Source of the DNA: Bdellovibrio sp.
GTDB lineage: Bacteria > Bdellovibrionota > Bdellovibrionia > Bdellovibrionales > Bdellovibrionaceae
Length of the DNA stretch: 41,694 nucleotides
Direction of reading: 5' to 3'
Assembly (NCBI GenBank): GCA_013360185.1
Contig: JABWCO010000013.1
Span: forward strand, 1 to 41,694
Part shown: positions 3,649 to 35,654 of the stretch, piece by piece
Layout: each line of letters opens with the position of its first letter
Numbering within the stretch: position 1 is the first letter of the stretch
Made by a program: the position numbers and the translations under genes
The notes under the pieces: generated by a model
Seen by the model: the letters and a program-made list of their open reading frames with translations, nothing else
Database searches by the model: none
Told to the model about the DNA's origin: nothing

Positions 3649-4014
3649 TTACGCATTTTTACTGCGATGAGAAATAACCTTTGTCAAATTCGCTTCAACC
3701 CACAGCTTCAGTGCAGAGACTTTTTCAGCAACATCTTTTCCTAGTGGGGTTAGGCTGTATTCTACTTTGGGTGGAATCACCGGATACACCTTGCGCGCGA
3801 TAAAACCGTCTTTTTCTAAGAGCTGTAACGTTTGTGCCAGCATCTTTTCGCTGATGCCTCCGATGCGGTTGCGCAATTCACTAAAGCGATAAGTTTGTTC
3901 CAAAAGAAGAACCAGGACCAAAGAACCCCAGGTCGAAGTGACATGATTTAAAACTTCGCGCGAAGGACATTTGGAAGAGTAGACGTCTGCAGTGAGTCGT
4001 TTATTTTTTGCCAT
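3649..4014 (-). CDS. HxlR-family (DUF24) winged-helix transcriptional regulator
   Basis: 121 aa, standard for the family. Family features are present: the N-terminal Cys-Pro (KCPSREVL, Cys16), then W..LVLVLLLE, FSELRNRIGGISEKMLAQTL (recognition helix region), L..LEKDGFIARKVYPVIPPKVEYSLT (wing) and LTPLGKDV. In relatives such as YodB, QsrR and QorR the N-terminal Cys senses quinones or electrophiles and the regulator represses a quinone reductase gene. Here the divergent neighbour is a QorB-like reductase, which fits that scheme (inference). The palindrome at 4087-4101 between the two genes is a candidate site. Confidence 0.9.
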   Translation of the reverse strand: MAKNKRLTADVYSSKCPSREVLNHVTSTWGSLVLVLLLEQTYRFSELRNRIGGISEKMLAQTLQLLEKDGFIARKVYPVIPPKVEYSLTPLGKDVAEKVSALKLWVEANLTKVISHRSKNA

Positions 4015-4086
4015 ATTAAGTCCTTGTAAAGACGGGGTAATTTAATAAGCCTCGTATTTATATTCATACTTACCAAAAAGTGCGTA

Positions 4087-4101
4087 CTTACTTTAAGTAA
4101 G
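4087..4101. promoter_or_regulatory. Candidate HxlR operator between the divergent regulator and reductase genes
   Basis: CTTACTT-T-AAGTAAG, a perfect 7-bp inverted repeat with a 1-bp centre. A TATGAT -10-like box for the rightward gene follows at 4104-4109, so a bound protein would cover that promoter. A second related half site (ACTTACC) lies at about 4067-4073. Confidence 0.55.
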
Positions 4102-4164
4102 CTTATGATTTAAAGTTAGCACATAAACGTATCTTTTGAAAGAGAATCATTAAAGGAGATATTT

Positions 4165-5013
4165 ATGATCGCAGTCACAGGTGCTAATGGAAAACTAGGC
4201 CACCACGTCATTAAAGAGCTATTAAAACGTACAGACGCTAAAAACATCATTGCCGTCGTGCGCAACCCAGAAAAGGCCGCAGACCTGAAAGCCTTAGGGG
4301 TTGAAGTCAGAAAAGGGGACTATGATCAATATGAATCATTAGTCACAGCCTTTGAAGGTGTACAGAAGGTTGTTTTGATTTCTTCAAGCGAAGTCGGTAA
4401 ACGACAGGCACAACACGCCAATGCCGTCAAAGCAGCAAAACAAGCAGGTATTAAGCTTCTTGCTTACACCAGCATCTTGCGCGCAGATACTTCCGTTTTA
4501 GGTTTGGCCAAAGAACATTTAGCTACAGAAAATGAAATCAAGGCATCGGGTATTCCGTATACGTTCTTGCGCAATGGTTGGTATTTAGAAAATCACACAG
4601 AAAATCTTGCTTCGGCTTTGCAATTCGGACAAATGATCGGTGCTGCGGGTGAAGGTCGTTTTTCTTCAGCCAGCCGCCAGGATTATGCAACGGCCGCGGC
4701 CGTGGTTGTGACCCAAGCGGGTCATGAAGGCAAAATTTATGAACTAGCGGGCGACAATACTTTCACGATGGCAGAACTTGCTAAAGAGGTTGGACATCAA
4801 GCTAATAAAACAATCACGTATCAAGATATGACGGAAGCGGACTATGAAAAAGCTTTGGTAGGCTTTGGCTTGCCACAAGCTTTTGCGCACCTTCTTGCTG
4901 ACTCGGACACGGGTGCAAAAAAAGGGGATCTGTTCAGTAGCAGCAAAGATCTGTCGCGCTTAATTGGACATGAAACAACGACGTTGGCTTCGGCGGTAAA
5001 GTCGGCTCTTTAG
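4165..5013 (+). CDS. NAD(P)H-dependent quinone oxidoreductase, QorB-like (atypical SDR, NmrA family)
   Basis: 282 aa, the usual length for QorB/YtfG. The Rossmann nucleotide motif TGANGKLGHHV is at residues 4-14. Further family blocks are VRNPEKAADLKALGVEVRKG, the variable YTS motif (LLAYTSILRAD), and YTFLRNGWYLEN, typical of QorB. Expected to reduce quinones with NADPH in the cytosol and so protect against electrophile stress. The start is set by AAAGGAGAT just upstream. It is divergent from an HxlR-type repressor, which is the usual genetic pairing, and a strong bidirectional terminator follows at 5097-5130. Confidence 0.87.
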   Translation: MIAVTGANGKLGHHVIKELLKRTDAKNIIAVVRNPEKAADLKALGVEVRKGDYDQYESLVTAFEGVQKVVLISSSEVGKRQAQHANAVKAAKQAGIKLLAYTSILRADTSVLGLAKEHLATENEIKASGIPYTFLRNGWYLENHTENLASALQFGQMIGAAGEGRFSSASRQDYATAAAVVVTQAGHEGKIYELAGDNTFTMAELAKEVGHQANKTITYQDMTEADYEKALVGFGLPQAFAHLLADSDTGAKKGDLFSSSKDLSRLIGHETTTLASAVKSAL

Positions 5014-11709: not shown

Positions 11710-12918
11710 ATGAAGTTGAAACCACTTGGCATTCTTCTATTGGCAGCATTCATTACTCAAGGAGTGCCACAGTTCGCTTTAGCGCAAACAGAGGGCGCAC
11801 AAATCGATGCGGAAGAAGCTTCCGCCGACGCCGAAGCCGCAAAGGCTGAAGCCAGCGAAGCAAAGCGTCGCGCTGAAGACGAGCGCAAACGTCGCGATAA
11901 ATTGCGTTCTGAAGCGCAATCCGCAATTGCAAAAGCGCGGGCTTTAGAAAATGACTCAAAAAAAGAACAAGCGGAATCCGAGCGTGAAGCGGCCAAGTTA
12001 AAACTTGAATCTGCAGAGCACGAACGCGATCAAAAAAATGCAGAGAAGGATCAAGCCACTTCGCAAGCGCGCATCAAGGCCGCTCAAGAAAAAGTGGCTA
12101 AGGCCAAACAGTTGCGTGAAGAATCCCTGGCTAAACGCAAACAGGCTGAAGAAAAAGCCAAAGAATTTCAAGCGCAAGCAAAAGATGAAGAAAAGGCCGC
12201 AGTCAGTGCTTCAGAGGCCGGCGCTTTAGCTGCGAAGGAAGCGGAAGAAGCCAAAGCGGATACGGCCCGTGCCGAACAGGCTTTATCCAAGGCGCGTTTG
12301 TTAACACAAAAAGCCGTGGCTGAAACCAAAGCCCGTGAAGCCAAAGCCAAGCAAGAAATTGCTCGAGCAGATGCGGACAAAGCAAGAGCCGAAGCTGAAA
12401 TGGCGCGCTTAAAAGCCCAAGACGAACAATCCAAAGCGATGATCGAAAAAGTCGAGGCGGAACTAAAAACTTCCTTGGCGGGCGCGAAAGAAGCGACTCA
12501 GCAAGTGGAAGTAGAACGTAAAAAAGTCGCTGAAACTAAAAATCAAGAAGAGAAGCTAAAACAAACGGCAGCCAAAGCTCGTCAAGAGCTGGAAAGCAAT
12601 CGTGCGAAGCTTATGAAAGAACAAGCGACTGCGAACCTCGAGATCGCTCGTGCTAAAAAAGTCATCGCAGAAAGCGAAACCGAGATCGCTCGATCTGAAT
12701 CTGAATTAGGCCGTCTGCGTTCTGAAGCTGAAAAGGCAAAAGCCGAACGCGAACGAGTAGAACAGTTAGCCGAAAGTGCCGCGAATAAAGCTGAAGAGAC
12801 GAAAATCAAAATGGAAACTGTGAAAGCGGAAGCCGAAGCAGAAAAAATGAAATTGGAAGCTTCAAAAATTCGCGCTGAATCTGGTTTGACAGAAAAAACC
12901 AAGAAGAAAAAGAAATAG
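11710..12918 (+). CDS. Secreted long coiled-coil (charged helix) protein
   Basis: 402 aa with signal peptide (cut near FALAQ, residue 26). Almost all the rest, residues about 33-402, is one run of Ala, Glu, Lys, Arg and Gln with very few Pro or Gly, of the type AEASEAKRRAEDERKRRDKL. This predicts a very long coiled coil or single alpha helix in the periplasm. It ends in a lysine run (EKTKKKKK). It resembles the middle of TolA in composition but lacks both the TolA membrane anchor and C-terminal domain, so TolA is not claimed. It has a good AAGGAG site and a terminator-like element 55 bp upstream. Function unknown. Confidence 0.8.
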   Translation: MKLKPLGILLLAAFITQGVPQFALAQTEGAQIDAEEASADAEAAKAEASEAKRRAEDERKRRDKLRSEAQSAIAKARALENDSKKEQAESEREAAKLKLESAEHERDQKNAEKDQATSQARIKAAQEKVAKAKQLREESLAKRKQAEEKAKEFQAQAKDEEKAAVSASEAGALAAKEAEEAKADTARAEQALSKARLLTQKAVAETKAREAKAKQEIARADADKARAEAEMARLKAQDEQSKAMIEKVEAELKTSLAGAKEATQQVEVERKKVAETKNQEEKLKQTAAKARQELESNRAKLMKEQATANLEIARAKKVIAESETEIARSESELGRLRSEAEKAKAERERVEQLAESAANKAEETKIKMETVKAEAEAEKMKLEASKIRAESGLTEKTKKKKK

Positions 12919-12935
12919 TTTTTTGGTCTTTCCGG

Positions 12936-13015
12936 TTTAGGCCTAAATGACAAATGTCTTGTGCCAAACCGCAGTCGTTTGTATTTCTGGCAGGTCACGC
13001 TTAAAAATGTGACCT
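12936..13015. other. Palindrome and hairpin after the coiled-coil gene
   Basis: TTTAGGCCTAAA (12936-12947) is a perfect 12-bp palindrome just after the stop. AGGTCAC (12992-12998) and GTGACCT (13009-13015) form a 7-bp stem with a 10-nt loop. Neither has a T tract. The second lies just ahead of the hairpin covering the start region of the next gene. Confidence 0.35.
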
Positions 13016-13026
13016 AAAAAGCAGAT

Positions 13027-13076
13027 CCCCTCTAAGGTTAAATCCACAGCACAATACTTGCTGTTTTAGAGGGGAG
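13027..13076 (+). promoter_or_regulatory. Hairpin that encloses the ribosome binding site of the PNPOx-like gene
   Basis: CCCCTCTAA (13027-13035) pairs perfectly with TTAGAGGGG (13066-13074). Inside, CAGCA (13047-13051) pairs with TGCTG (13059-13063). The right arm is the Shine-Dalgarno GAGGGGAG (13069-13076) for ATG 13083, so the closed form would hide it. Candidate translational switch; no known riboswitch class recognised. Confidence 0.55.
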
Positions 13077-13082
13077 CTTATA

Positions 13083-13529
13083 ATGCACGAACAACGTGAA
13101 ACCACGCAGGCCCTGTCGGCGAAAGAATCTCTGGAACTCTTTGAAAAAAAACACTTTGCTCATCTTGCTTGCCACCACAAAAACGATCTTTATCTGATCC
13201 CGATCACCTATGCCTTCGCAGATGGCACTATCTACAGCCATACAGGTCCTGGCAAAAAAATTGAGATCATGCGGAAAAATCCCCACGTTTGTATTCAAGT
13301 CGAAGATATCGAAAACTACTTCGAATGGAAAAGCGCGATTGCCTGGGGAGACTTTGAAGAATTGCATGGTGATGAGGCCGCACAGGCGGCGCGCCTAATG
13401 CTCCGACAGTTCGCGGAAAAAGAGAGACCCCAGCGGCGGTCAGACTTGGTGGAGGACTTCCCCGAAGAATTAGAGTCTGCAATTTTATTCAAAGTTAAAA
13501 TCAAAGAGTGTACGGGTCGATTCCAATAG
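13083..13529 (+). CDS. Pyridoxamine 5'-phosphate oxidase-fold flavin-binding protein (NimA-like)
   Basis: 148 aa, typical for the split-barrel FMN-binding proteins annotated as pyridoxamine 5'-phosphate oxidase family. The pattern LACHHKNDLYLIPITYAFADGT then IYSHTGPGKKIEIMRKNPHV and WKSAIAWGDFEELHG fits the NimA/Rv-type subgroup, where the His/Gly-rich segment binds flavin and the following K..MR..NP strand lines the barrel. It probably uses FMN, F420 or haem; substrate unknown. It is a single gene with its ribosome site buried in the hairpin at 13027-13076. Confidence 0.82.
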   Translation: MHEQRETTQALSAKESLELFEKKHFAHLACHHKNDLYLIPITYAFADGTIYSHTGPGKKIEIMRKNPHVCIQVEDIENYFEWKSAIAWGDFEELHGDEAAQAARLMLRQFAEKERPQRRSDLVEDFPEELESAILFKVKIKECTGRFQ

Positions 13530-13921
13530 CTCTCTTGTCAGAGAGGCCGGCGCCGAGCCGCTTTAGTCTCCTCTTGTTATGAATTCCTGTACTGGGCACG
13601 TCGTAGAAATGTCTCATGGTGAGACTCAAAGGACCCCGTCCGGGATATCAGAGATTAAATCAGTTTTACGTAATTGTGAATTTTCACTAAAAATATTGCT
13701 CCCTCGAGATGTGACGTGGAAACAGCGTCTGAGTTTGCTGCGTTCCTAGGAAAGCTAAGGAAATTCATCACATTAGCGCATATTGTGGATAAAAGCTTTG
13801 TTTAAAAGTGAGAAATCCTGGGCACTCCCAACTTCCAATCTCTAAATGACGCTTAAACAGAAGGACTCTTAGACCGATGAAGAATAGAGCTTTTTTTTTA
13901 TTCTGAACGTGAGGTTGAAAA
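13530..13921. other. Intergenic region before the fibre cassette
   Basis: About 390 bp without a convincing gene. A perfect 6-bp hairpin GTCTCA-TGG-TGAGAC lies at 13611-13625, and an AGAATA/TATTCT pair around a T run near 13881-13905 precedes the lipoprotein gene. The cassette promoter is presumably here but I could not place it. Confidence 0.4.
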
Positions 13922-14212
13922 GTGTTAGGTAAAATAATTGCCCAGAGTCTCGACTTTAGATTGCTAAAGCAAAGCTGTGTTGCGTTGGGAACTATTTTCG
14001 CTTTGGGAGCCTGCTCTCTCGACGCGAACATTCAAGCCTTGACTGAAACCATCGATATCGAAAATTTGAATCGAAAAGAACCTGACTTTATTCACGGTGA
14101 AGTTGTGACCTCGGGGCAATTTGAAATCACCGGAGTGTTCGGGGAGATCTCTGAAAAAACCAAGGCCATAAATAATAATGACTGGGAATTCGAAGGGGTC
14201 TTTTATGAATAA
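13922..14212 (+). CDS. Small lipoprotein leading the fibre cassette
   Basis: 96 aa, starting with GTG behind GAGG at 13911-13914. After a short N-terminal region and one hydrophobic helix it has a lipobox FALGAC with Cys31, so it should be lipid-anchored, likely in the outer membrane (residue after Cys is Ser). The mature part of about 65 aa (SLDANIQALTETIDIENLN and GQFEITGVFGEIS) matches no family I know. Its last 8 bp overlap the start of the 706-aa fibre gene, so the two are translationally coupled. An anchor or assembly partner for the fibre is a reasonable inference. Confidence 0.7.
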   Translation: MLGKIIAQSLDFRLLKQSCVALGTIFALGACSLDANIQALTETIDIENLNRKEPDFIHGEVVTSGQFEITGVFGEISEKTKAINNNDWEFEGVFYE

Positions 14213-16325
14213 ATATTCTGTATCATCCCTTCTTCTAGGTCTTTTACTTATTTTAGGATCAGCGGGTGATGCTTTCGCCCAGCATAAGGGCATAAGTTTT
14301 CAAGCGGTGATGAAGAAGTCAGATGGCAGCTATCCGAGTGTTACTGGGATTTCGGTGACGGCGCAAATTCTAGACCCAGTAAATAATTGCATCTTACGGG
14401 AAGAAGAACACACCGGTAAAAATATCACCAAAGGCTATTTGAATTTGGTGTTAGGTGATAGCGGGGTTGCGACGCCGGCGATCCGCAACCCCTCGCCGGT
14501 GCTGACGATCAGTCAGGTTTTAGATAACCAAACGACGCGCACAGGTTTAAAGTGTGTAGATCAAAACAATAATATTCTAGCCACGGGGCAAAGTTACATT
14601 CCCTCGAACATTGATCGTCGCATTTTGCGCGTGCGTTTAAATATTTTAGGCGAGGACATTGTCGCTGATTTCAATATGCGAGCCGTGGCTTATGCGGTCA
14701 ATGCAGAGATGCTTAACAGTAAATCCGACACAGACTTTATCAACGTCAACGGTGCTAAGGGTGTTGAGCAAAATAAGTTAGAAAGTATTTTTGAAAGATT
14801 CACGAAGCTAGATGCTATTTTAAATAACTCCAACGGCAGCGGAACTTCTTTGGGCGTTAATATTTCTGGCAACGCCGCCACCGCGACCAGTGTGACGGGC
14901 ACCGTGGGTATCGCCAATGGCGGAACCGGTGCGACAACGGCTGCGGATGCCAGGACGAATCTTGACTTGGGTCCTTTGGCGGCGATGAAACCCACAGGGA
15001 CAGCGGATGCGACAACCTATTTGCGCGGAGACGGAACATGGCAAGCCATCGGTGGTGGTGGCGCAGTTTCAAGTGTTGCCGGACGTACCGGGGCTGTGAC
15101 GTTAACAACCGCAGACGTCAGTGGCTTGGGCGCCTTGGCCACGAAAACCACTTCTGGTACTGCCGATAACACAACTTATCTCAGAGGCGATGGTGCGTGG
15201 ACGGCCCTTGGTGGCGCTGCTTTATTAAATGTTGGCACCGGTGCGGGGACTGTGGCGGCGGGTGATGACTCAAGAATTTCTAAGGCTATACAAAATGGGG
15301 GCTCAGGTGCTTCGTCAGATATCGTTGCAATTTCCGCAGGGGCTGACTCCAGTAAACCGGGAGCTCCGGTGGCTGGGCAAATGTATGTGGCGACGGATGC
15401 TCAGAAAATATATCGTTTTGATGGGGGCTCTTGGATCACTGTTGCGCAGGTCGGGGCCTCGGGCTTTACGGGAAGTTTAAGCGGAGACGTCAGCGGGACT
15501 CAGTCCTCAACAAGTGTCGATAAAATTAAGGGCCAAGCGGTGACGGCCACGGCAAGTACGGCGGGGCAAGTTTTGCGCTATGCCGGGAGCAACAATTGGA
15601 CACCAAGCTTTGTCGCTATGACGGATTTAAGATCCACGGTGACAGGTGGTAGTCAGTTGGGGAGCTCTTGTTTGGCTCATCAAACACTGACTTACAACTC
15701 CGTGGGGGACGTCATGCAATGTGCAAGCATCGCCGGTCTTGATGCTGCGGTCTTAACCACGGGAACGATCGCAGACTCGTTGTTGCCTGCCAGTGTGAAG
15801 TATTGGACAGCCGTGACTGATGGAATTAACTATGCCACAGGTCGCGTAGGCGTGAATGTATCAAGTCCTTCTGCACAACTGGATGTTCGGTCGCCTGCCA
15901 GTTACGCTGTTCCTGCGACACTTTCAGGAAATATTACTGCCGGCGTTACTTCGATTTCCGTGAGCAGCACTGCCGGTTATCCAACCAGTGGGGTTTTATT
16001 AATTGATGATGAATTGATTGCCTATACAGGAATCACGGGAACAAGTTTTACCGGTTTAACTCGAGGTTTTAGTGGCACAACGGCCGCAGCACATTTAGCC
16101 GGAGCTTACACAGAAGTTCTGGCGATGTATGCAGGGGGCAACGTAAAAACTGGAATTCTGACTTCAGATGAAATTCGTGTCGGAGCTACCACTTCAGCCA
16201 CTGTGATCGATTCTGGCGGAACTATTTTGCCAGGAGTGACCACTTCCAATGAAGGCGACGTTTGTAATGATGGCGGTGCCATCGTGCGCGATGCCGCCGG
16301 AGACGTGATGATTTGTTCTGATTAA
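14205..16325 (+). CDS. Phage tail-fibre-like secreted surface protein (possible mosaic adhesive fibre)
   Basis: 706 aa. ATG 14205 is chosen over the in-frame upstream ATG 14178 because it gives a clean signal peptide (cut near DAFAQ, residue 26) and follows GAAGGGG. Residues about 27-180 form a globular beta-rich domain (ISFQAVMKKSDGSYPSVTG). Phage fibre modules follow: IANGGTGATTAADARTNLDL, YLRGDGTWQ and a second YLRGDGAWT, SSVAGRTGAVTLTTADVSG. The C-terminal part has YTGITGTSFTGLTRGFSGTT, common in phage virion proteins, and ends in a small Cys module (EGDVCNDGGAIV...MICSD). Bdellovibrio carries trimeric mosaic adhesive fibres for prey recognition; membership here is inference from architecture. 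It is followed 61 bp later by the glycine-rich gene. Confidence 0.8.
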   Translation: MNKYSVSSLLLGLLLILGSAGDAFAQHKGISFQAVMKKSDGSYPSVTGISVTAQILDPVNNCILREEEHTGKNITKGYLNLVLGDSGVATPAIRNPSPVLTISQVLDNQTTRTGLKCVDQNNNILATGQSYIPSNIDRRILRVRLNILGEDIVADFNMRAVAYAVNAEMLNSKSDTDFINVNGAKGVEQNKLESIFERFTKLDAILNNSNGSGTSLGVNISGNAATATSVTGTVGIANGGTGATTAADARTNLDLGPLAAMKPTGTADATTYLRGDGTWQAIGGGGAVSSVAGRTGAVTLTTADVSGLGALATKTTSGTADNTTYLRGDGAWTALGGAALLNVGTGAGTVAAGDDSRISKAIQNGGSGASSDIVAISAGADSSKPGAPVAGQMYVATDAQKIYRFDGGSWITVAQVGASGFTGSLSGDVSGTQSSTSVDKIKGQAVTATASTAGQVLRYAGSNNWTPSFVAMTDLRSTVTGGSQLGSSCLAHQTLTYNSVGDVMQCASIAGLDAAVLTTGTIADSLLPASVKYWTAVTDGINYATGRVGVNVSSPSAQLDVRSPASYAVPATLSGNITAGVTSISVSSTAGYPTSGVLLIDDELIAYTGITGTSFTGLTRGFSGTTAAAHLAGAYTEVLAMYAGGNVKTGILTSDEIRVGATTSATVIDSGGTILPGVTTSNEGDVCNDGGAIVRDAAGDVMICSD

Positions 16326-16386
16326 GCATCAAGCAGATCACGAAGTTGAATTTATATTAAAAAAAATAATTTTCTGGAGACACTGT

Positions 16387-17247
16387 ATGAACATCAAAAC
16401 AAAAACCATCTTCCAAAATATCGGGTCCGTATTTTTACCGGCATTAGCAATCAGTCTTTTCATCACGCCCTCAAACTTCGCCCAAGCGAAGACCTGGAAA
16501 AAAGTTTCTGGTGGCGGCGACTCGATTTTGAGTCTTAAAAGTCAACAGGTGTTCACAGCGAACGGAACCTTTAACGTCCCTGCGGGAGTAAGCACAGTCT
16601 ACGTCACTGCCATCGGCGGTGGCGGTGGCGGCGGCAGCCAGAGTGGCGGTGGCTACGGCGGTGGAGGTGGTGGAGGTGGCGTGTGTGTGATCCAATTCGC
16701 GTGCGCTGTGACTCCGTCTTCTACAGTTGCTGTTACCGTTGGTGGTGGGGGCACTGGTTCTCCCTCTGGTAATGGCGGAATTGGTAGTTCATCCAGCTTT
16801 GGCTCTTGTGTGTCAGTGAGCGGTGGCAGCGGTGGATTGCCTAGTGGCATGGGTGGTTCGGGCGGATCTGGTGGGGGTAGCGGAGAGGCAGGTTTCCCTC
16901 CTGGCTCCGGTAGTTCAGGCGGCAGTGGTGGTTCTGCTGGATTGACAAATACGATTGCTTATGGTGGCGGGGGAGGTTCTGGTTGTGGCATAACTCCCCC
17001 TGTCGCTGGCGTGGGAGCAGGGGTAAATTATGGTGGAGCCGGCGGTGGCAATGGGGGTTCGGGTGGACGGTCCGGTGGCGGCGGTGGCGGCGGACTCCAC
17101 TATTTGGGTATAGTAAATAATCAACGGGGTGCTTATGGTAATGCTGGCGGGAGCGGCGGCGGTGGCTATGGCGCCGGCGGTGGTGGGGCTTACCTCGGTA
17201 GTCCCGGCGGCAGTGGAGCACCCGGTGTTGTGGTTGTGGAGTGGTAA
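16387..17247 (+). CDS. Secreted glycine-rich protein resembling phage adhesin tips
   Basis: 286 aa with signal peptide (cut near NFAQA, residue 34). After a short linker comes a beta-sandwich entry typical of glycine-rich phage receptor-binding proteins, QVFTANGTFNVPAGVSTVYV. Then about 200 residues of Gly-rich blocks (runs of 5-8 Gly, with S, A, Y) and the characteristic ending GAPGVVVVEW. Such Gly repeats can pack as polyglycine II helices, as in the gp38 adhesin of T-even-like phages. Four Cys lie in two short inserts. It sits directly downstream of the fibre-like gene, as gp38-type adhesins sit after gp37. Local GC is raised by Gly codons. No enzymatic motif. Confidence 0.75.
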   Translation: MNIKTKTIFQNIGSVFLPALAISLFITPSNFAQAKTWKKVSGGGDSILSLKSQQVFTANGTFNVPAGVSTVYVTAIGGGGGGGSQSGGGYGGGGGGGGVCVIQFACAVTPSSTVAVTVGGGGTGSPSGNGGIGSSSSFGSCVSVSGGSGGLPSGMGGSGGSGGGSGEAGFPPGSGSSGGSGGSAGLTNTIAYGGGGGSGCGITPPVAGVGAGVNYGGAGGGNGGSGGRSGGGGGGGLHYLGIVNNQRGAYGNAGGSGGGGYGAGGGGAYLGSPGGSGAPGVVVVEW

Positions 17248-17256
17248 CACATGTCC

Positions 17257-18570
17257 TCACGCTCGGGGCGATGAGGACTCTTCCACCTTCTTAATTAAGT
17301 CGTGACAAACTTGTTCATAAAAGGACTTTTTCGCAACCAAGCGGGCTGCGACGTTTGCAATCATGGAAGCCAACATTAAATATAAAATAATCTCGTGGGA
17401 GTCGCCCATTTCTAACACCAGCACAAAAGAGGTGAAGGGCGAACGTGTCACACCTGTCAAAAAAGCGACCATACCTACGAACGCCATCAATTTAAAATTA
17501 CTAAAGCCAAGATTTTGACTTAACCAATGTGCTAAGGTTGCACCGCTGGCTAAGGCCGGCGCAAAAACTCCACCGATGACTCCGGCAGAATACGTAAAGA
17601 AATTACCTAAGATGCGTGAGGCGGGGACTTCAGCTGCTAAGGTCTGATCGGGATTTTGCAAAGAACTTAAAATCACAGATTTACCTGCGCCGATGGTACT
17701 GGGGCCACAAAGCCAAATGGTTAGGCTTAGCAAAAGTCCAAAAAACAAAGTAATAAAAATTTTTTCTGAAAATGTTTTTTGCGCGCGCCATTTGCCGACG
17801 CGATAAAGCCCTTCAGCAAAAAGACCACTGATGGCTCCGATGACAACGGCGATAAAGATGGTTTGAAAAATCACGCGCGCCGTGATGGCGTCAAAAGATG
17901 AGTTTCCAAAATAAAGATAATTGCCCAAAAAGAATTGAGACATGATACCGGCGATAATCACCGCTTGAAACACCGCCGTGCGTACCAGGCTGATGTGGGT
18001 TTTTGCTAGCTCTTCAATCGCAAACACAATGCCGCCCAGGGGGGTGTTAAAGGCCGACGCTAAACCCGCGGCTCCTCCGGCTAACATCATGGCCGGCAGT
18101 TGCGGGGCAGGAAGTTTTTTGGGCCAGTATTTGGTCATCTGATAAAAAATGGCAGCAGAAACTTGCAGTGTTGGGCCTTCTCGGCCGGAAACGCCCCCGC
18201 CTAAAACGCAAATGCAAGATCCGAAAATTTTCACCAGCAGCATCGGCACGCTGAGCAGTTTGTCTAAGAACTTGTTATTTGTGGTCGACAGCTCCATGGC
18301 AGCCATAACCTGAGGAATTCCGCTTCCCAGAGCTTCTTTAGAAAGAAAATGTCCCATTAAAAACGAAGCCAATAAAGCCAAAGGTGCGGTGAGCAGAAGC
18401 CAAGGTGAAGAGGCGTGCTTCAAAGCCCAATCTTCACAAAATTTAAAAAGATAATTATAAAAGACAGAAATCACGGCGGCTAAAGCGGCGGCCACCCAAA
18501 AGGGAATATTGGTTATAAGTTTTTCCTGAAGATATTTAACTGTCTCTTGGTTTTTTAATTGGGTGATCAT
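17257..18570 (-). CDS. ClC-family chloride channel/antiporter
   Basis: 437 aa inner-membrane protein with about a dozen or more helices. The ClC selectivity motifs are all present: GSGIPQV (about 82-88), GGGVSGREGPTLQ with the gating Glu131, and GGVFAPALASG. The internal proton-path Glu is kept (FAIEELAK, Glu187), which in this family indicates Cl-/H+ exchange rather than a passive channel. There is no cytoplasmic CBS domain. Its ATG overlaps the TGA of the MscS gene (ATGA), so it is coupled to it. Last gene of uppP-mscS-clc. Confidence 0.93.
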   Translation of the reverse strand: MITQLKNQETVKYLQEKLITNIPFWVAAALAAVISVFYNYLFKFCEDWALKHASSPWLLLTAPLALLASFLMGHFLSKEALGSGIPQVMAAMELSTTNNKFLDKLLSVPMLLVKIFGSCICVLGGGVSGREGPTLQVSAAIFYQMTKYWPKKLPAPQLPAMMLAGGAAGLASAFNTPLGGIVFAIEELAKTHISLVRTAVFQAVIIAGIMSQFFLGNYLYFGNSSFDAITARVIFQTIFIAVVIGAISGLFAEGLYRVGKWRAQKTFSEKIFITLFFGLLLSLTIWLCGPSTIGAGKSVILSSLQNPDQTLAAEVPASRILGNFFTYSAGVIGGVFAPALASGATLAHWLSQNLGFSNFKLMAFVGMVAFLTGVTRSPFTSFVLVLEMGDSHEIILYLMLASMIANVAARLVAKKSFYEQVCHDLIKKVEESSSPRA

Positions 18571-31746: not shown

Positions 31747-33025
31747 GCAAGGATTCTGCTAGCTACAGTATGCTTTTACTCTGATTCTATAATTATTAAA
31801 ATTATGCATTCCGTAGGCTCGGTTTTGTATCTCATCCATTCTTCGATGTAAACCCTCGGTTATCGAGTTTGTTTTACTAAATCTCCACATTCTCACGATT
31901 TCTTTACTCCAATTTTCCAAAGTATCTCCTAAAGTTTCTAAATTTCTGAACCCACAGGTTTTTAAGGCCACAATAGCGTCTAAAAAATGCGGTATGATCT
32001 TGGCTGCATCTCGCTTGCTGTAGACCCTTGTCAGAATAACTTTCATCAGCCGCTGTTTAAATTCATAGACGGATTTTAAAGCAGGGTTTTCCGCTAAATA
32101 TCTGTTTAAGTTTCTTCGGGACTTTTCTTTCATTCTCGTCCACTCGTGCATGCGCATCAGGTGAGTTAGTCCACGGCTTTTTCTTCCAACTTCATCAAGC
32201 TGACCCCAGGTCTTTAGGAAGTGCTGATTGATTAATCGCACCACATGAAAACGGTCTGCGACGATCATCGCTTGCGGGAAATAATGTTGCGCAATTTTGC
32301 GATAAGTTTCGGATAAATCCATAACAACGACTTTGCAGTTCTTTCGATCAGGCATGCGCCGCAAATACTTACCCAGGTTGGATTCTGTGCGACCTAAGGT
32401 AATGTCGAAAACTGTATGCTTTTGAAGGTTTACAAGTGTTGTTTGATAGCCCAATTTTTTAGAAAACTTCTTCTCATCAATACCCAAAATCTTCGGGCAA
32501 CTTGCATTTTTATGTTCGTTAAATTCTCGCTGCAAATAGCTTTTGTAATAGCGCCCCACCGTCGCTTGTCCTAATGCCAGACGCTGACTTACTTTTAGAA
32601 TTGAATGACCATCATGGTGCTTGCTCGCAACTTCGTCTTTAAAAGGTTCTGTGACCCTTTGGTAGGGTAAAACTCCTGGCATTCTTTGGTTAAAATACTT
32701 TCCGCAGTCTCGGCAGTGGAACTTGTACGTTTGGATGATAAGGACGCTTTTGGCCGATCCAATGCTGTGATGTTTCAAAATCCTCTGAAAGCGTTCCTTT
32801 TTGCGTAGGTTCTTAGATTGGCAACGAGTACAAACTGTCGGCCCTGTGTATTCTGCAACGATTTCAACGGTCTTTAGGCCGTTGCAGGAAATAATTTTAT
32901 AATCTGGCAATCCAATGATAGATTCCGATCTGATTAGGGGCATTCGGGGTTCCTTTTGTTAAAACAGTTTGTGGTAAAACCATTCTAACAGATTCCCTGA
33001 CTGCCCCTGTCATTGAGGGAGAACA
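31722..33025 (-). mobile_element. ISL3-family insertion sequence
   Basis: About 1.3 kb with one transposase gene. Imperfect terminal inverted repeats of about 41 bp (31722-31762 and 32985-33025), about 30 of 41 matching, sharing the core AGGGGCAG. No 8-bp target duplication is visible: the flanks are GGGGCAGA on the left and AGTGGAAA on the right. This points to rearrangement after insertion. The right end cuts into the AbiEii gene. Confidence 0.85.
31759..32943 (-). CDS. ISL3-family transposase
   Basis: 394 aa, apparently intact. N-terminal zinc-binding region with Cys38, Cys41, Cys77 and Cys80 (CTRC, CRDC), a helix-turn-helix (LKVSQRLALGQATVGRYYKS), then the DDE domain. Candidate catalytic acids are Asp156 (ILGIDEKKF), Asp209 (VVMDLSETYR) and Glu363 (SITEGLHRRMDEIQNRAYG). 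The family motif VADRFHVVRLINQ is present. Its stop lies inside the left inverted repeat. Length and motifs fit an active ISL3 transposase. Confidence 0.95.
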   Translation of the reverse strand: MPLIRSESIIGLPDYKIISCNGLKTVEIVAEYTGPTVCTRCQSKNLRKKERFQRILKHHSIGSAKSVLIIQTYKFHCRDCGKYFNQRMPGVLPYQRVTEPFKDEVASKHHDGHSILKVSQRLALGQATVGRYYKSYLQREFNEHKNASCPKILGIDEKKFSKKLGYQTTLVNLQKHTVFDITLGRTESNLGKYLRRMPDRKNCKVVVMDLSETYRKIAQHYFPQAMIVADRFHVVRLINQHFLKTWGQLDEVGRKSRGLTHLMRMHEWTRMKEKSRRNLNRYLAENPALKSVYEFKQRLMKVILTRVYSKRDAAKIIPHFLDAIVALKTCGFRNLETLGDTLENWSKEIVRMWRFSKTNSITEGLHRRMDEIQNRAYGMHNFNNYRIRVKAYCS

Positions 33026-33744
33026 AGTGGAAATTTTAGAGGCGTACGTCTGTTCGCAAAGGTAAGTTCGATTGCTTTCTTAAGTTCTGGGCCTTCTGGT
33101 AAATCGCCAGAGCGAACAATCAGAAGCGCATCGTGATAGTCTTTCATCCGACTGTTAATGGCGCCTTTGGATGCAATGGTTTCTAGCTTTTCAGCAAGAA
33201 TGGTTTCTAGCTTTTCAGCAAGAATAGTTTCTAGAGGGTATACTTGAATGGCGATGGCGTCAGAAAAAAGTGCCGCGCCCTTATAGTCAAAAGTTTGATA
33301 GTCCATTTCCTCTGGATTGACGACGTCGCCCACGCCGATATCAACCTGCACTTTGTCCGTCATTGTTTCGAAGGACATTTTTAAGGTCACTCTGAAGCCG
33401 TCATATTCCATGTGCGGCTGATCAAGCTTTTCGATAGATTCATAATCGAATTTAAAAAAGTCGCCAAGATCTACTCTGGCAATTTCGGTCACAGCGATTT
33501 TGATGGCGTCCTCGGTGGCACTTAAGTTCTTCATCAAGAAATCAAGATCAACGGTCTCGCGTCCTATCTTGATGTATTGAGAAAGAAGTAAACCACCTTT
33601 GAAAATGAACTTATCGTTGTGCTTGGACTTCGCAAGCCTTGCCAGAAAGCGTTCAAAGGCAAGTTGGTTCCACACTTCTTGTGATGTAAGTCCTTTTTCT
33701 TTTGCGATGAATTTTAAGCGATCTTTCAAAGCTTGAAGCTTCAT
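33010..33744 (-). CDS. AbiEii-type nucleotidyltransferase toxin, C-terminally truncated by the IS
   Basis: 244 aa; AbiEii proteins are usually nearer 290-300. Nucleotidyltransferase features: FIFKGGLLLSQY then ETVDLDFLM (metal-binding Asp residues), KVQVDIGVGD, and NSRMKDYHD. AbiEii is the toxin of the AbiE type IV system and blocks growth of phage-infected cells, by NTP transfer to tRNA in studied relatives. The last five residues (LVLPQ) and the stop are supplied by the IS terminal repeat, so the natural C-terminus is missing. A 24-bp tandem duplication (33178-33225) repeats ILAEKLET. Both suggest loss of activity. Its ATG overlaps the AbiEi stop by 4 bp. Confidence 0.85.
   Translation of the reverse strand: MKLQALKDRLKFIAKEKGLTSQEVWNQLAFERFLARLAKSKHNDKFIFKGGLLLSQYIKIGRETVDLDFLMKNLSATEDAIKIAVTEIARVDLGDFFKFDYESIEKLDQPHMEYDGFRVTLKMSFETMTDKVQVDIGVGDVVNPEEMDYQTFDYKGAALFSDAIAIQVYPLETILAEKLETILAEKLETIASKGAINSRMKDYHDALLIVRSGDLPEGPELKKAIELTFANRRTPLKFPLVLPQ
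33178..33225. repeat. 24-bp tandem duplication inside the AbiEii gene
   Basis: Two perfect 24-bp copies (33178-33201 and 33202-33225), with a partial third, adding eight in-frame residues so that ETILAEKL occurs twice. Relatives normally have one such segment in front of the NSRMKD motif. Confidence 0.9.
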
Positions 33745-34337
33745 GTTGTCACCGACAGAATATAGGGGGCGATATTCACTTTTAGCTTCTTGGCGTAGTC
33801 TTCGAGTTTTTTAAGACCTAGCTTCTCAGCACCCTTTCGCTTCATCGCCATCTTCAAAGCTTTAATCGCAGTCTCTTTGTCGAGCAGTCTGAAGGAATCC
33901 ACAATTGTGCGCTCCAAATCAAAGATTGGAACTTTGATTCCTTCGATAGTAAAAGTTGTTCTCCCAAGGGTGACGTCCCTCATCCTGACAAGTCTGACAA
34001 GGGGAGTTCTCTTGTGACTTGTGTCGTTTCCAATAGCGATCCAATATTCACGCGGAATGTCTTCTGTAACTCCATAAACAGCTAAGGCTGAAACAAGACA
34101 AACCACACCACCTTTGATTGTCTGTGTGACATTGACCAGATCTTCCCATCGCAAGTCATTCACTACGGGAGCACTCGTATGTCTGTAAACGCCTCGAGCA
34201 AGGCGTTCGAGAGCCCCGACATTCACATAGTGAGATAAGGTTGCGGCAGAAACGCCGAGGGCCCTGGCTTCTTTGCTGGTGAAGCTAGGGGCTTTTAGAA
34301 GTGGCTTGAGGGCTTTCAATGCTGATTGTGGCTTCAT
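33741..34337 (-). CDS. AbiEi-type antitoxin / autorepressor
   Basis: 198 aa. The N-terminal winged helix (about 1-60, SFTSKEARALGVSAATLSHY and LERLARGVYRH) binds DNA. The C-terminal domain has VCLVSALAVYGVTEDIP and IFDLERTIVDSFRLL, as in AbiEi proteins. It counteracts AbiEii indirectly and represses the operon. A 23-bp inverted repeat, the size reported for AbiEi operators, lies directly at its start (34340-34396). It looks intact while the toxin gene is damaged. Confidence 0.88.
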   Translation of the reverse strand: MKPQSALKALKPLLKAPSFTSKEARALGVSAATLSHYVNVGALERLARGVYRHTSAPVVNDLRWEDLVNVTQTIKGGVVCLVSALAVYGVTEDIPREYWIAIGNDTSHKRTPLVRLVRMRDVTLGRTTFTIEGIKVPIFDLERTIVDSFRLLDKETAIKALKMAMKRKGAEKLGLKKLEDYAKKLKVNIAPYILSVTT

Positions 34338-34339
34338 GA

Positions 34340-34396
34340 TTTTAACTTAACACTAACACTCACAGGCGTCCACTGAGTGTTAGTGTTAAGTTAAAA
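34340..34396. promoter_or_regulatory. AbiEi operator: two 23-bp inverted repeats
   Basis: Perfect 23-bp arms 34340-34362 and 34374-34396 with an 11-bp spacer, starting 2 bp before the AbiEi ATG. Each arm contains the direct repeat AACACTAACACT. In studied AbiE systems the antitoxin binds two such repeats cooperatively and bends the promoter. Confidence 0.85.
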
Positions 34397-34599
34397 ATAC
34401 CTCCAAAGCTCATATATTAGATCTGGCGCTTAAATTACGACTGGTTAGTCCTGCTAGACCGAATCGCCTACTAAAAGCGATTTGAAGAAATATGCAAAAA
34501 AATATAGAACTTTCTCGTTTTGAGGCGTTTTTTCGCCGCTTCGTATTTCATGCTCATTTTGATGAGTAGCTGTGGGACTACGCAAAAGGAGAGGAGGGT
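34397..34599. other. Intergenic, no gene seen
   Basis: AT-rich spacer between the AbiE operator and the tRNA remnant. Two small hairpins are visible: AATCGC/GCGATT (about 34463-34483) and CTCAT/ATGAG around 34553-34567. No integrase or other gene. Confidence 0.4.
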
Positions 34600-34642
34600 T
34601 GGTTAGAGCAACGGAATCATAATCCGTAGCTCCGCGGTTCAA
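34600..34642 (+). pseudogene. tRNA-Met remnant at the island edge
   Basis: 30 bp (34600-34629) are identical to 31589-31618 of the intact tRNA-Met, from D loop through anticodon stem. After four mostly different bases GCGGTTCAA again matches. The acceptor, the 5' D stem and the 3' half of the T stem are lost, so it cannot fold as a tRNA. It marks the right edge of the IS/AbiE island. Confidence 0.8.
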
Positions 34643-34727
34643 AAACGGGATTCCCAATGGCCCCGCACCCCCTATAAGTCACACTTCAGTTTCCTTGCCC
34701 TTTGAAAATCAAATGTTTGGATTTGCT

Positions 34728-35654
34728 TTAAGACGCCGTTTTTTCAGTAGAGTTCGTCTCAGAGGATTCAGATGCTAAGACTTGTTCCGCTTGTGGCGGC
34801 GTTGTATTCGCTTCTTCCGCATTGTTTGATTTTCTCGTGCGCTTAACTTTTCGTGATGCTCTTTTTTGTGACTTAACGAATTTTAATATTTCAGCAGCTT
34901 TTGTGTCGTTCCATCCTTTGATGGCATCGTTGAGTCCTTGTTCAAGTAGCCAATAGAGGCGATCCGTCAGGATCTCATGGTTGGCTTTATACTCATGTTC
35001 TCCACGGACGTACTTAGCAATATATTTTACGACATCGACTGAAAGAATAGCTTTCGCCAATGATTCTGGAGAGAACGCCATGGCTTCTTTCGCAAGCTCT
35101 GGCCATACATCTGTGATGAATGAGTTTTCGTGCAAGTCATAAAATTCATAGGCTTGTTCTTCCACACCTTTTTTGGAAGTGTCGATGACGTCAGCGTCTG
35201 ATTTTAAATCAAAGCTCGCGATTTCAATGCCGCCATACTCTGGCATAGAAAAGTCATAAAGTTTCCACTCACAACCATTTGTTAAGATACCCCATCGAAC
35301 ACTGCCGATTAGATTTAAATATTCGTTAAGTTGAACTTTCCCGCAGCGAAAGTCTGACTTATTTAAATCGAAGCCCATTTTCTTTACTTCGACAACAAAG
35401 ATAGGCTTGTCATTGCGAAGTACGATCAGGTCAGGTCGCATTTTTCCTTTAGTTTCTTGCGCACGTATTGAGTATCCACCAGATGCCGTATAGCCAAGGC
35501 AATTTTTCAAGAAGCTTTGTGCCCATCTTTCTACATCGAGTTCCTTAGTGTTTGGATTGATGTCCAAAGTCTTTAGCTCATGAAGATGTTCTGTTGTTTG
35601 ATCCAAAAGATTGCGTACAATTCTGTCTTGTTTTGTTTCTCTAGACACGCTCAC
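34728..35654 (-). CDS. Stand-alone type I restriction HsdR N-terminal-like nuclease
   Basis: 308 aa. Residues about 35-150 match the HSDR_N type PD-(D/E)xK domain: KMRPDLIVLRNDKPIFVVEV carries Asp75, Glu89 and Lys91, and WGILTNGCEWKLYDF follows as in the family. There is no helicase domain and no HsdM/HsdS neighbours, so it is not a complete restriction enzyme. The C-terminal third (about 265-308) is a basic then Ser/Thr/Glu-rich tail (KSQKRASRKVKRTRKSN). A defence or DNA-repair role is possible from context beside AbiE and an IS. ATG at 35654 is preceded by AAGGAGTG. Confidence 0.8.
   Translation of the reverse strand: MSVSRETKQDRIVRNLLDQTTEHLHELKTLDINPNTKELDVERWAQSFLKNCLGYTASGGYSIRAQETKGKMRPDLIVLRNDKPIFVVEVKKMGFDLNKSDFRCGKVQLNEYLNLIGSVRWGILTNGCEWKLYDFSMPEYGGIEIASFDLKSDADVIDTSKKGVEEQAYEFYDLHENSFITDVWPELAKEAMAFSPESLAKAILSVDVVKYIAKYVRGEHEYKANHEILTDRLYWLLEQGLNDAIKGWNDTKAAEILKFVKSQKRASRKVKRTRKSNNAEEANTTPPQAEQVLASESSETNSTEKTAS

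Follow-up and report, generated by a model that had tools for sequence, protein, structure and literature searches.

A probable three-part adhesion-fibre cassette in Bdellovibrio with a lipoprotein, a MAT-family fibre and a separately encoded phage-type tip

Prey recognition in Bdellovibrio has been attributed to mosaic adhesive trimer (MAT) proteins, a family of fibres with 21 members in B. bacteriovorus (Caulton et al. 2024, PMC10769870). These proteins have a signal peptide, a conserved beta-rich N-terminal domain, phage-fibre-like repeats and a variable C-terminus, and the tips described there are domains of the fibre itself. Their holder on the predator is stated to be unknown: that paper leaves open the surface partner of the MAT N-terminal domain, and its main text nowhere uses the words lipoprotein, glycine or operon. 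Separately encoded tips are known from T2-type phages such as S16 and PP01, where the gp37 fibre gene is followed by that of a glycine-rich receptor-binding protein, gp38, whose N-terminal part sets fibre compatibility and which carries hypervariable segments between its glycine-rich motifs (PMC12892980). In the cyanophage Pam3, tip and shaft form one protein (gp24; 7YPX, 7YFW), with a TNF-like plus glycine-rich domain as the proposed receptor-binding tip (PMC9608196), and the mycobacteriophage Bxb1 has a siphophage tail-tip component of glycine-rich fold, the "tail wing brush" gp33 (9D93). Here, we compare with these systems a locus on a 41,694-nucleotide stretch of a Bdellovibrio sp. genome (GCA_013360185.1, contig JABWCO010000013.1), hereafter the window, where three same-strand genes at 13922-17247 encode a lipoprotein, a fibre and a glycine-rich protein, all three open reading frames being present as an initial annotation had described them. 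We consider the locus to be, probably, a prey-adhesion fibre cassette of three parts: a lipoprotein base, a MAT fibre and a separate phage-type tip. The annotation's overall reading, a fibre plus adhesin-tip system with a lipoprotein, finds support in co-conservation and in the predicted fold of the tip.

Gene arrangement and the MAT-family fibre

The first gene (13922..14212, + strand) starts with a GTG preceded by GAGG and encodes a small protein of 96 amino acids, a candidate fibre anchor whose paralogues lie directly upstream of other MAT genes. As annotated, it has the features of a bacterial lipoprotein: a signal peptide, an LGA-C lipobox (residues 28-31; 14003-14014) and a Cys that is invariant among the aligned paralogues and followed here by a Ser, with lipidation predicted and a mature part of 66 amino acids (14012-14209). 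The ATG of the fibre gene at 14205 sits within the final codons of the lipoprotein gene (ATGAATAA), and this 8-nucleotide overlap agrees with the translational coupling proposed earlier for the two genes. A gap of 61 nucleotides separates the fibre gene from the glycine-rich gene, and our scan detected no terminator-like site between the cassette genes; the three are probably transcribed as one unit from an attack-phase promoter. Applying unchanged the attack-phase consensus TTAAG-N16-CCGATA, derived from mapped promoters (Karunker et al. 2013, PMC3627812), we located a sigma28/FliA-type promoter-like sequence, TTAAA-N16-CCGATG (13853..13879, + strand; 9/11 match), 42 nucleotides ahead of the lipoprotein start. 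Matches of at least 9/11 within 200 nucleotides upstream occur at 48 of 88 MAT operons versus 12 of 257 control genes (Fisher P = 3e-23), P values of this kind overstating the evidence because the sets of related sequences are not phylogenetically independent.

The second gene (14205..16325, + strand) encodes the exported fibre of 706 amino acids, in which we found the predicted signal peptide, NGGTGATTAADARTNL, two copies of YLRGDG and SVAGRTGAVTL, all as annotated. It has no Pfam match at all and hence none to S74. Following the signal peptide is a conserved beta-rich N-terminal domain of the "QHKGISFQAV" type (14280..14828, + strand; ~130 amino acids in the family), which is common to 11 other loci of the same genome, where fibre paralogues are numerous. 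A profile made from this domain, A1, matches 12 places in that genome, in a census based on sequence searches, and 39 of the 144 genomes sampled from the phylum. In the Bdellovibrio genome that we take to be B. bacteriovorus HD100, it matches 21 loci. Since this equals the published number of MAT proteins, and since several open-frame lengths agree with those of named MATs (627 for Bd2740, 626/627 for Bd2872 and 922 for Bd3182, the Bd numbers being assigned from open-frame lengths and positions rather than from annotation look-ups), the window fibre is, judged by its sequence, a MAT protein in which no S74 terminus is recognised. It also shares with the family (PMC10769870) a C-terminus that differs between paralogues, as a diversified tip of the S74 or non-S74 kind; what sets it apart from the published MATs is a tip that is secreted as a protein of its own.

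A mixed alignment proved too diverse to scan genome contigs with, and a narrower one gave named-record matches only in Bdellovibrio metagenome-assembled genomes. The model of the N-terminal domain is mostly strand (pLDDT 55.8), and we claim neither a known nor a new fold for it because its fold search returned no PDB match at E<=0.001; PMC10769870 likewise reports no confident PDB match for the MAT N-terminal domain. Among solved-structure sequences, the fibre, its N-terminal profile and the lipoprotein profile found nothing meaningful. The fibre would form a trimeric beta-prism and, as the attack-phase promoter-like site indirectly suggests, may be displayed on the surface of the attack-phase predator.

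Lipoproteins upstream of MAT genes

A search of the same genome with the lipoprotein returned relatives directly upstream of other MAT genes, and inspection added more. Among MAT genes with enough flank, 32 of 74 have a lipobox open reading frame directly upstream, versus 8 of 251 HD100 control genes (Fisher P = 1e-16), with same-strand overlaps of 8 or 4 nucleotides recurring between the two genes. In the reverse test, a MAT N-terminal domain adjoined every fetched locus that matched the lipoprotein profile at E<=1.7e-7, weaker matches being mostly unrelated lipoproteins. HD100 has an upstream lipoprotein at 6 of its 21 MATs, namely at 6 of the 7 that lack the standard LTYQGRI-like N-terminus versus 0 of the 14 standard ones. 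This pairing, which recurs widely among predatory bacteria, bears out the lipoprotein-fibre part of the co-conservation on which the initial annotation had made its reading depend. Because lipoprotein and fibre paralogues are arranged alike elsewhere in the same genome, and other genera have counterparts of the trio, the cassette arrangement is not due to chance.

The two partners are also matched by type. Lipoproteins beginning CSD-x-x-P or similar go with MATs beginning LFTYEG or GYHVSG, and those mostly beginning C-S-[LMIF]-[DE] go with MATs beginning HKGI-FQ or GAVITYHG. Over 35 pairs, lipoprotein distances correlated with those of the partner N-termini (Mantel rho 0.42, 0/5000 permutations), a correlation that contact could produce but so could joint inheritance of the two genes. 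The lipoprotein thus appears, from these comparisons, as a general feature of a subset of MATs, and we regard such lipoproteins as the best available candidates for the MAT anchor. We found no later report of a MAT lipoprotein partner in the literature searched, which left most subscription papers and all preprints outside. The lipoprotein genes name a specific and testable MAT partner in the model strain HD100, where they adjoin loci matching the structurally characterised Bd2439, Bd2734, Bd2740 and Bd3182.

The leading alternative would make the lipoprotein an assembly or export helper, that is, a periplasmic chaperone or outer-membrane translocation factor for the cognate fibre that has no place in the final structure. 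Phage fibres commonly depend on a dedicated chaperone whose gene lies next to theirs (for instance Pam3 gp25, PMC9608196), and a chaperone of this kind fits the translational coupling and the type matching equally well. It accords less with the products themselves, which carry a lipobox and are small (in most pairs, the Cys is followed by about 65-85 or 165 residues). An Asp follows the Cys in 0 of the 35 paired lipoproteins listed, so by the Lol rule established for E. coli, which may not be that of Bdellovibrio, retention in the outer membrane would be expected. Overall, we consider a helper role unlikely and prefer that of a lipoprotein base.

Several arrangements around other MAT genes were observed alongside. 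At four loci (L080, L088, L092 and L127), orthologues of the 626-aa Bd2872-like MAT have no upstream lipoprotein; a conserved ~200-aa protein with an N-terminal membrane segment (MNxRNVxxxIxGTV), possibly another type of anchor, is encoded upstream instead, and conserved genes for a 145-aa and a ~400-aa protein lie downstream. On contig C209 of the window's genome (locus L037, 745-2072), a lipoprotein-MAT pair is followed by two tandem secreted proteins, of which the scanned member matches DUF1554/Endostatin, possibly another kind of separate tip. Directly downstream of a further pair, on contig C199 of the same genome (L032, 79-1125), lies the gene of a protein with a twin-arginine signal that matches DUF7483 (2.4e-26).

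The glycine-rich protein and its link to the fibre

The third gene (16387..17247, + strand) encodes a secreted glycine-rich protein of 286 amino acids, which we propose as a detachable receptor-binding tip; the signal peptide and the VPAGV and VVVVEW motifs that had been annotated are present. The protein matches Pfam PF21722 (Gly_rich_2; 5.9e-9, 36.7 bits versus a cut-off of 24.3) as well as PHROG tail families. Its structure, modelled from five sequences (mean pLDDT 60.9, with 85-95 in the core blocks), gave as best match the Pam3 fibre (7ypx; Foldseek 6.4e-7, VIA Z 18.0 over 195 residues), followed by the Bxb1 tail-tip chain 9d93_Qa (VIA Z 13.7), and the Bxb1 tail tip also matched the glycine-rich profile (4.3e-6). 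Matches among viral models were largely phage glycine-rich and tail fibre proteins. The predicted fold is that of the Pam3 fibre tip, a TNF-like plus glycine-rich domain, in line with the adhesin fold anticipated earlier. The setting differs in both phages: tip and shaft are encoded here by separate genes, unlike those of Pam3 gp24, and Bxb1 gp33 belongs to a siphophage tail tip rather than to a bacterial surface fibre.

Tip paralogues are conserved at their ends (49% and 46% identical outside shared glycines) and diverge in the middle (22%), which resembles the hypervariable segments of gp38 adhesins (PMC12892980). The parallel with T-even gp37/gp38 drawn by the initial annotation stands as regards the way of working, a fibre gene followed by that of a separate glycine-rich receptor-binding protein, but not as regards family: because the glycine-rich protein has no Pfam GP38 match (only PF21722 was found), it works like a GP38 adhesin without being a member. 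It further differs from the T2-type pair in being bacterial and secreted by a signal peptide, in its proposed docking motif and in a fold closer to that of Pam3. The cassette is new as a variant of the MAT family.

Fibre and glycine-rich domain occur together either in neighbouring genes or within one fused gene; in several genera, the MAT C-terminus carries Gly_rich_2 as a fusion (Pfam-confirmed for five). One such fusion is from the genus Bdellovibrio (L196): its lipoprotein gene (2028-2297) overlaps that of a 1018-aa MAT that ends in Gly_rich_2 and shares 48% identity with the window fibre across its N-terminal 286 amino acids. By sequence, this locus is the window cassette with the third gene fused on. 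The complete set with a separate tip is rarer and was found in the window and on contig C208 of the same genome. The co-conservation proposed for the trio therefore holds for fibre and glycine-rich protein, adjacent or fused, and is narrower for the full separate set. Because searches with the Gly_rich_2 family overlook genuine members, the window's own protein among them, counts of glycine-rich genes are lower bounds.

Two motifs may account for how a separate tip is held. At the fibre C-terminus lies a two-cysteine module, CNDGGAIVRDAAGDVMIC (16263..16316, + strand), the proposed docking site, and after the signal peptide of the glycine-rich protein lies AKTWKK (16486..16503, + strand), the proposed docking segment, which is conserved in separate tips as the WKK-type motif [AG]-x-x-W-[KQR]-[KR]. 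The module occurs in 5 of 5 MATs, from three genera, that are followed by a WKK-type secreted glycine-rich gene and in 0 of 68 other complete MATs, these 68 having neither the module nor a WKK-type partner. The eight fused forms that we checked lack both the module and the WKK motif, as expected if the two form the docking pair of the split form.

The chief competing reading of the glycine-rich protein is that it is secreted as a matrix or adhesin protein in its own right and that its place beside the fibre gene has no further meaning. Its own signal peptide and the 61-nucleotide gap would suit this, as would an orphan paralogue on another contig (described below) and the occurrence of Gly_rich_2 proteins at a distance from MATs in certain other families of the phylum. 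Against these stand the fusions to MAT C-termini in several genera, the 5/5 link with the fibre C-terminal module, the phage-tip fold and the lack of a terminator before the gene. We regard such independence as quite improbable and hold to a tip that belongs to the fibre.

Tip genes can also be clustered. On contig C194 of the window's genome (L035, 2880-8878), a single MAT gene lies between two pairs of glycine-rich tip genes, and the reading frame of the copy at 3818-4510 is broken close to the 3' end. A 10/11 promoter match precedes the first tip gene of this array, and the fused cassette of genome G210 has a promoter match too. An IMG/VR contig (L253, 2005-4535) resembles the C194 array in that phage fibre-like genes enclose three glycine-rich tip-like genes in tandem.

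Proposed assembly and genomic setting

In the assembly that we propose, the small outer-membrane lipoprotein would act as a dedicated fibre base, its short beta-repeat tail binding, in a type-specific manner, the N-terminal domain of the fibre encoded downstream. The middle part would be the MAT-family trimeric fibre. The third would be a glycine-rich receptor-binding domain, of the type found in phage fibre tips, that is secreted on its own; its N-terminal WKK segment would dock on the C-terminal two-cysteine module of the fibre. The variable middle of the tip, between its conserved ends, may then contact prey surfaces. The broader view that some of the prey-recognition fibres of predatory bacteria are modular three-piece devices, with a type-matched lipoprotein base as the missing partner of the MAT N-terminus, a fibre and an exchangeable phage-type tip, is put forward more tentatively, at slightly less than even chances. 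If it is true, the C194 array, with four tips, one fibre and an attack-phase promoter-like site, would let one fibre carry alternative tips, and a separate tip with its proposed docking pair would allow a phage-like change of specificity without a change of fibre.

Several points weigh against the proposed cassette. The lipoprotein is not a universal requirement because MATs of the standard N-terminal type have no dedicated one, and within the window's own genome the distance correlation was not significant (rho 0.23, P = 0.24; eight pairs). The model of the glycine-rich protein is of low confidence in its middle (residues 121-221). The module and WKK patterns were defined after the cases had been seen, so the P value of 7e-8 for their link is only descriptive. 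Finally, contig C185 of the same genome carries an orphan WKK-type glycine-rich gene with no adjoining MAT (L192, 3826-4704); it has a 9/11 attack-phase promoter match and may serve a fibre encoded elsewhere.

That the locus is what remains of a prophage or tailocin fibre operon, as the phage-like fibre modules and the PHROG tail matches might suggest, is extremely improbable and we rule it out, in agreement with the initial annotation: the Pfam scan found a phage structural family in 0 of the 20 surrounding genes (no capsid, tube, sheath or baseplate family), every cassette protein bears an export signal, and the fibre N-terminal domain is without match in 50,697 phage records and is common to 12 MAT loci of the same genome. 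The neighbours are housekeeping genes (ribose-phosphate pyrophosphokinase, Ham1, RNase PH, amidase, ClC channel, MscS-type channel, BacA and others), and there was no Rfam match in 12900-17500. Six further Bdellovibrio genomes also contain the adjoining ClC gene. Farther along the window, at 31759-35654, an ISL3-type transposase, an AbiEii nucleotidyltransferase toxin and an HSDR_N-type protein adjoin one another, possibly as a mobile defence patch.

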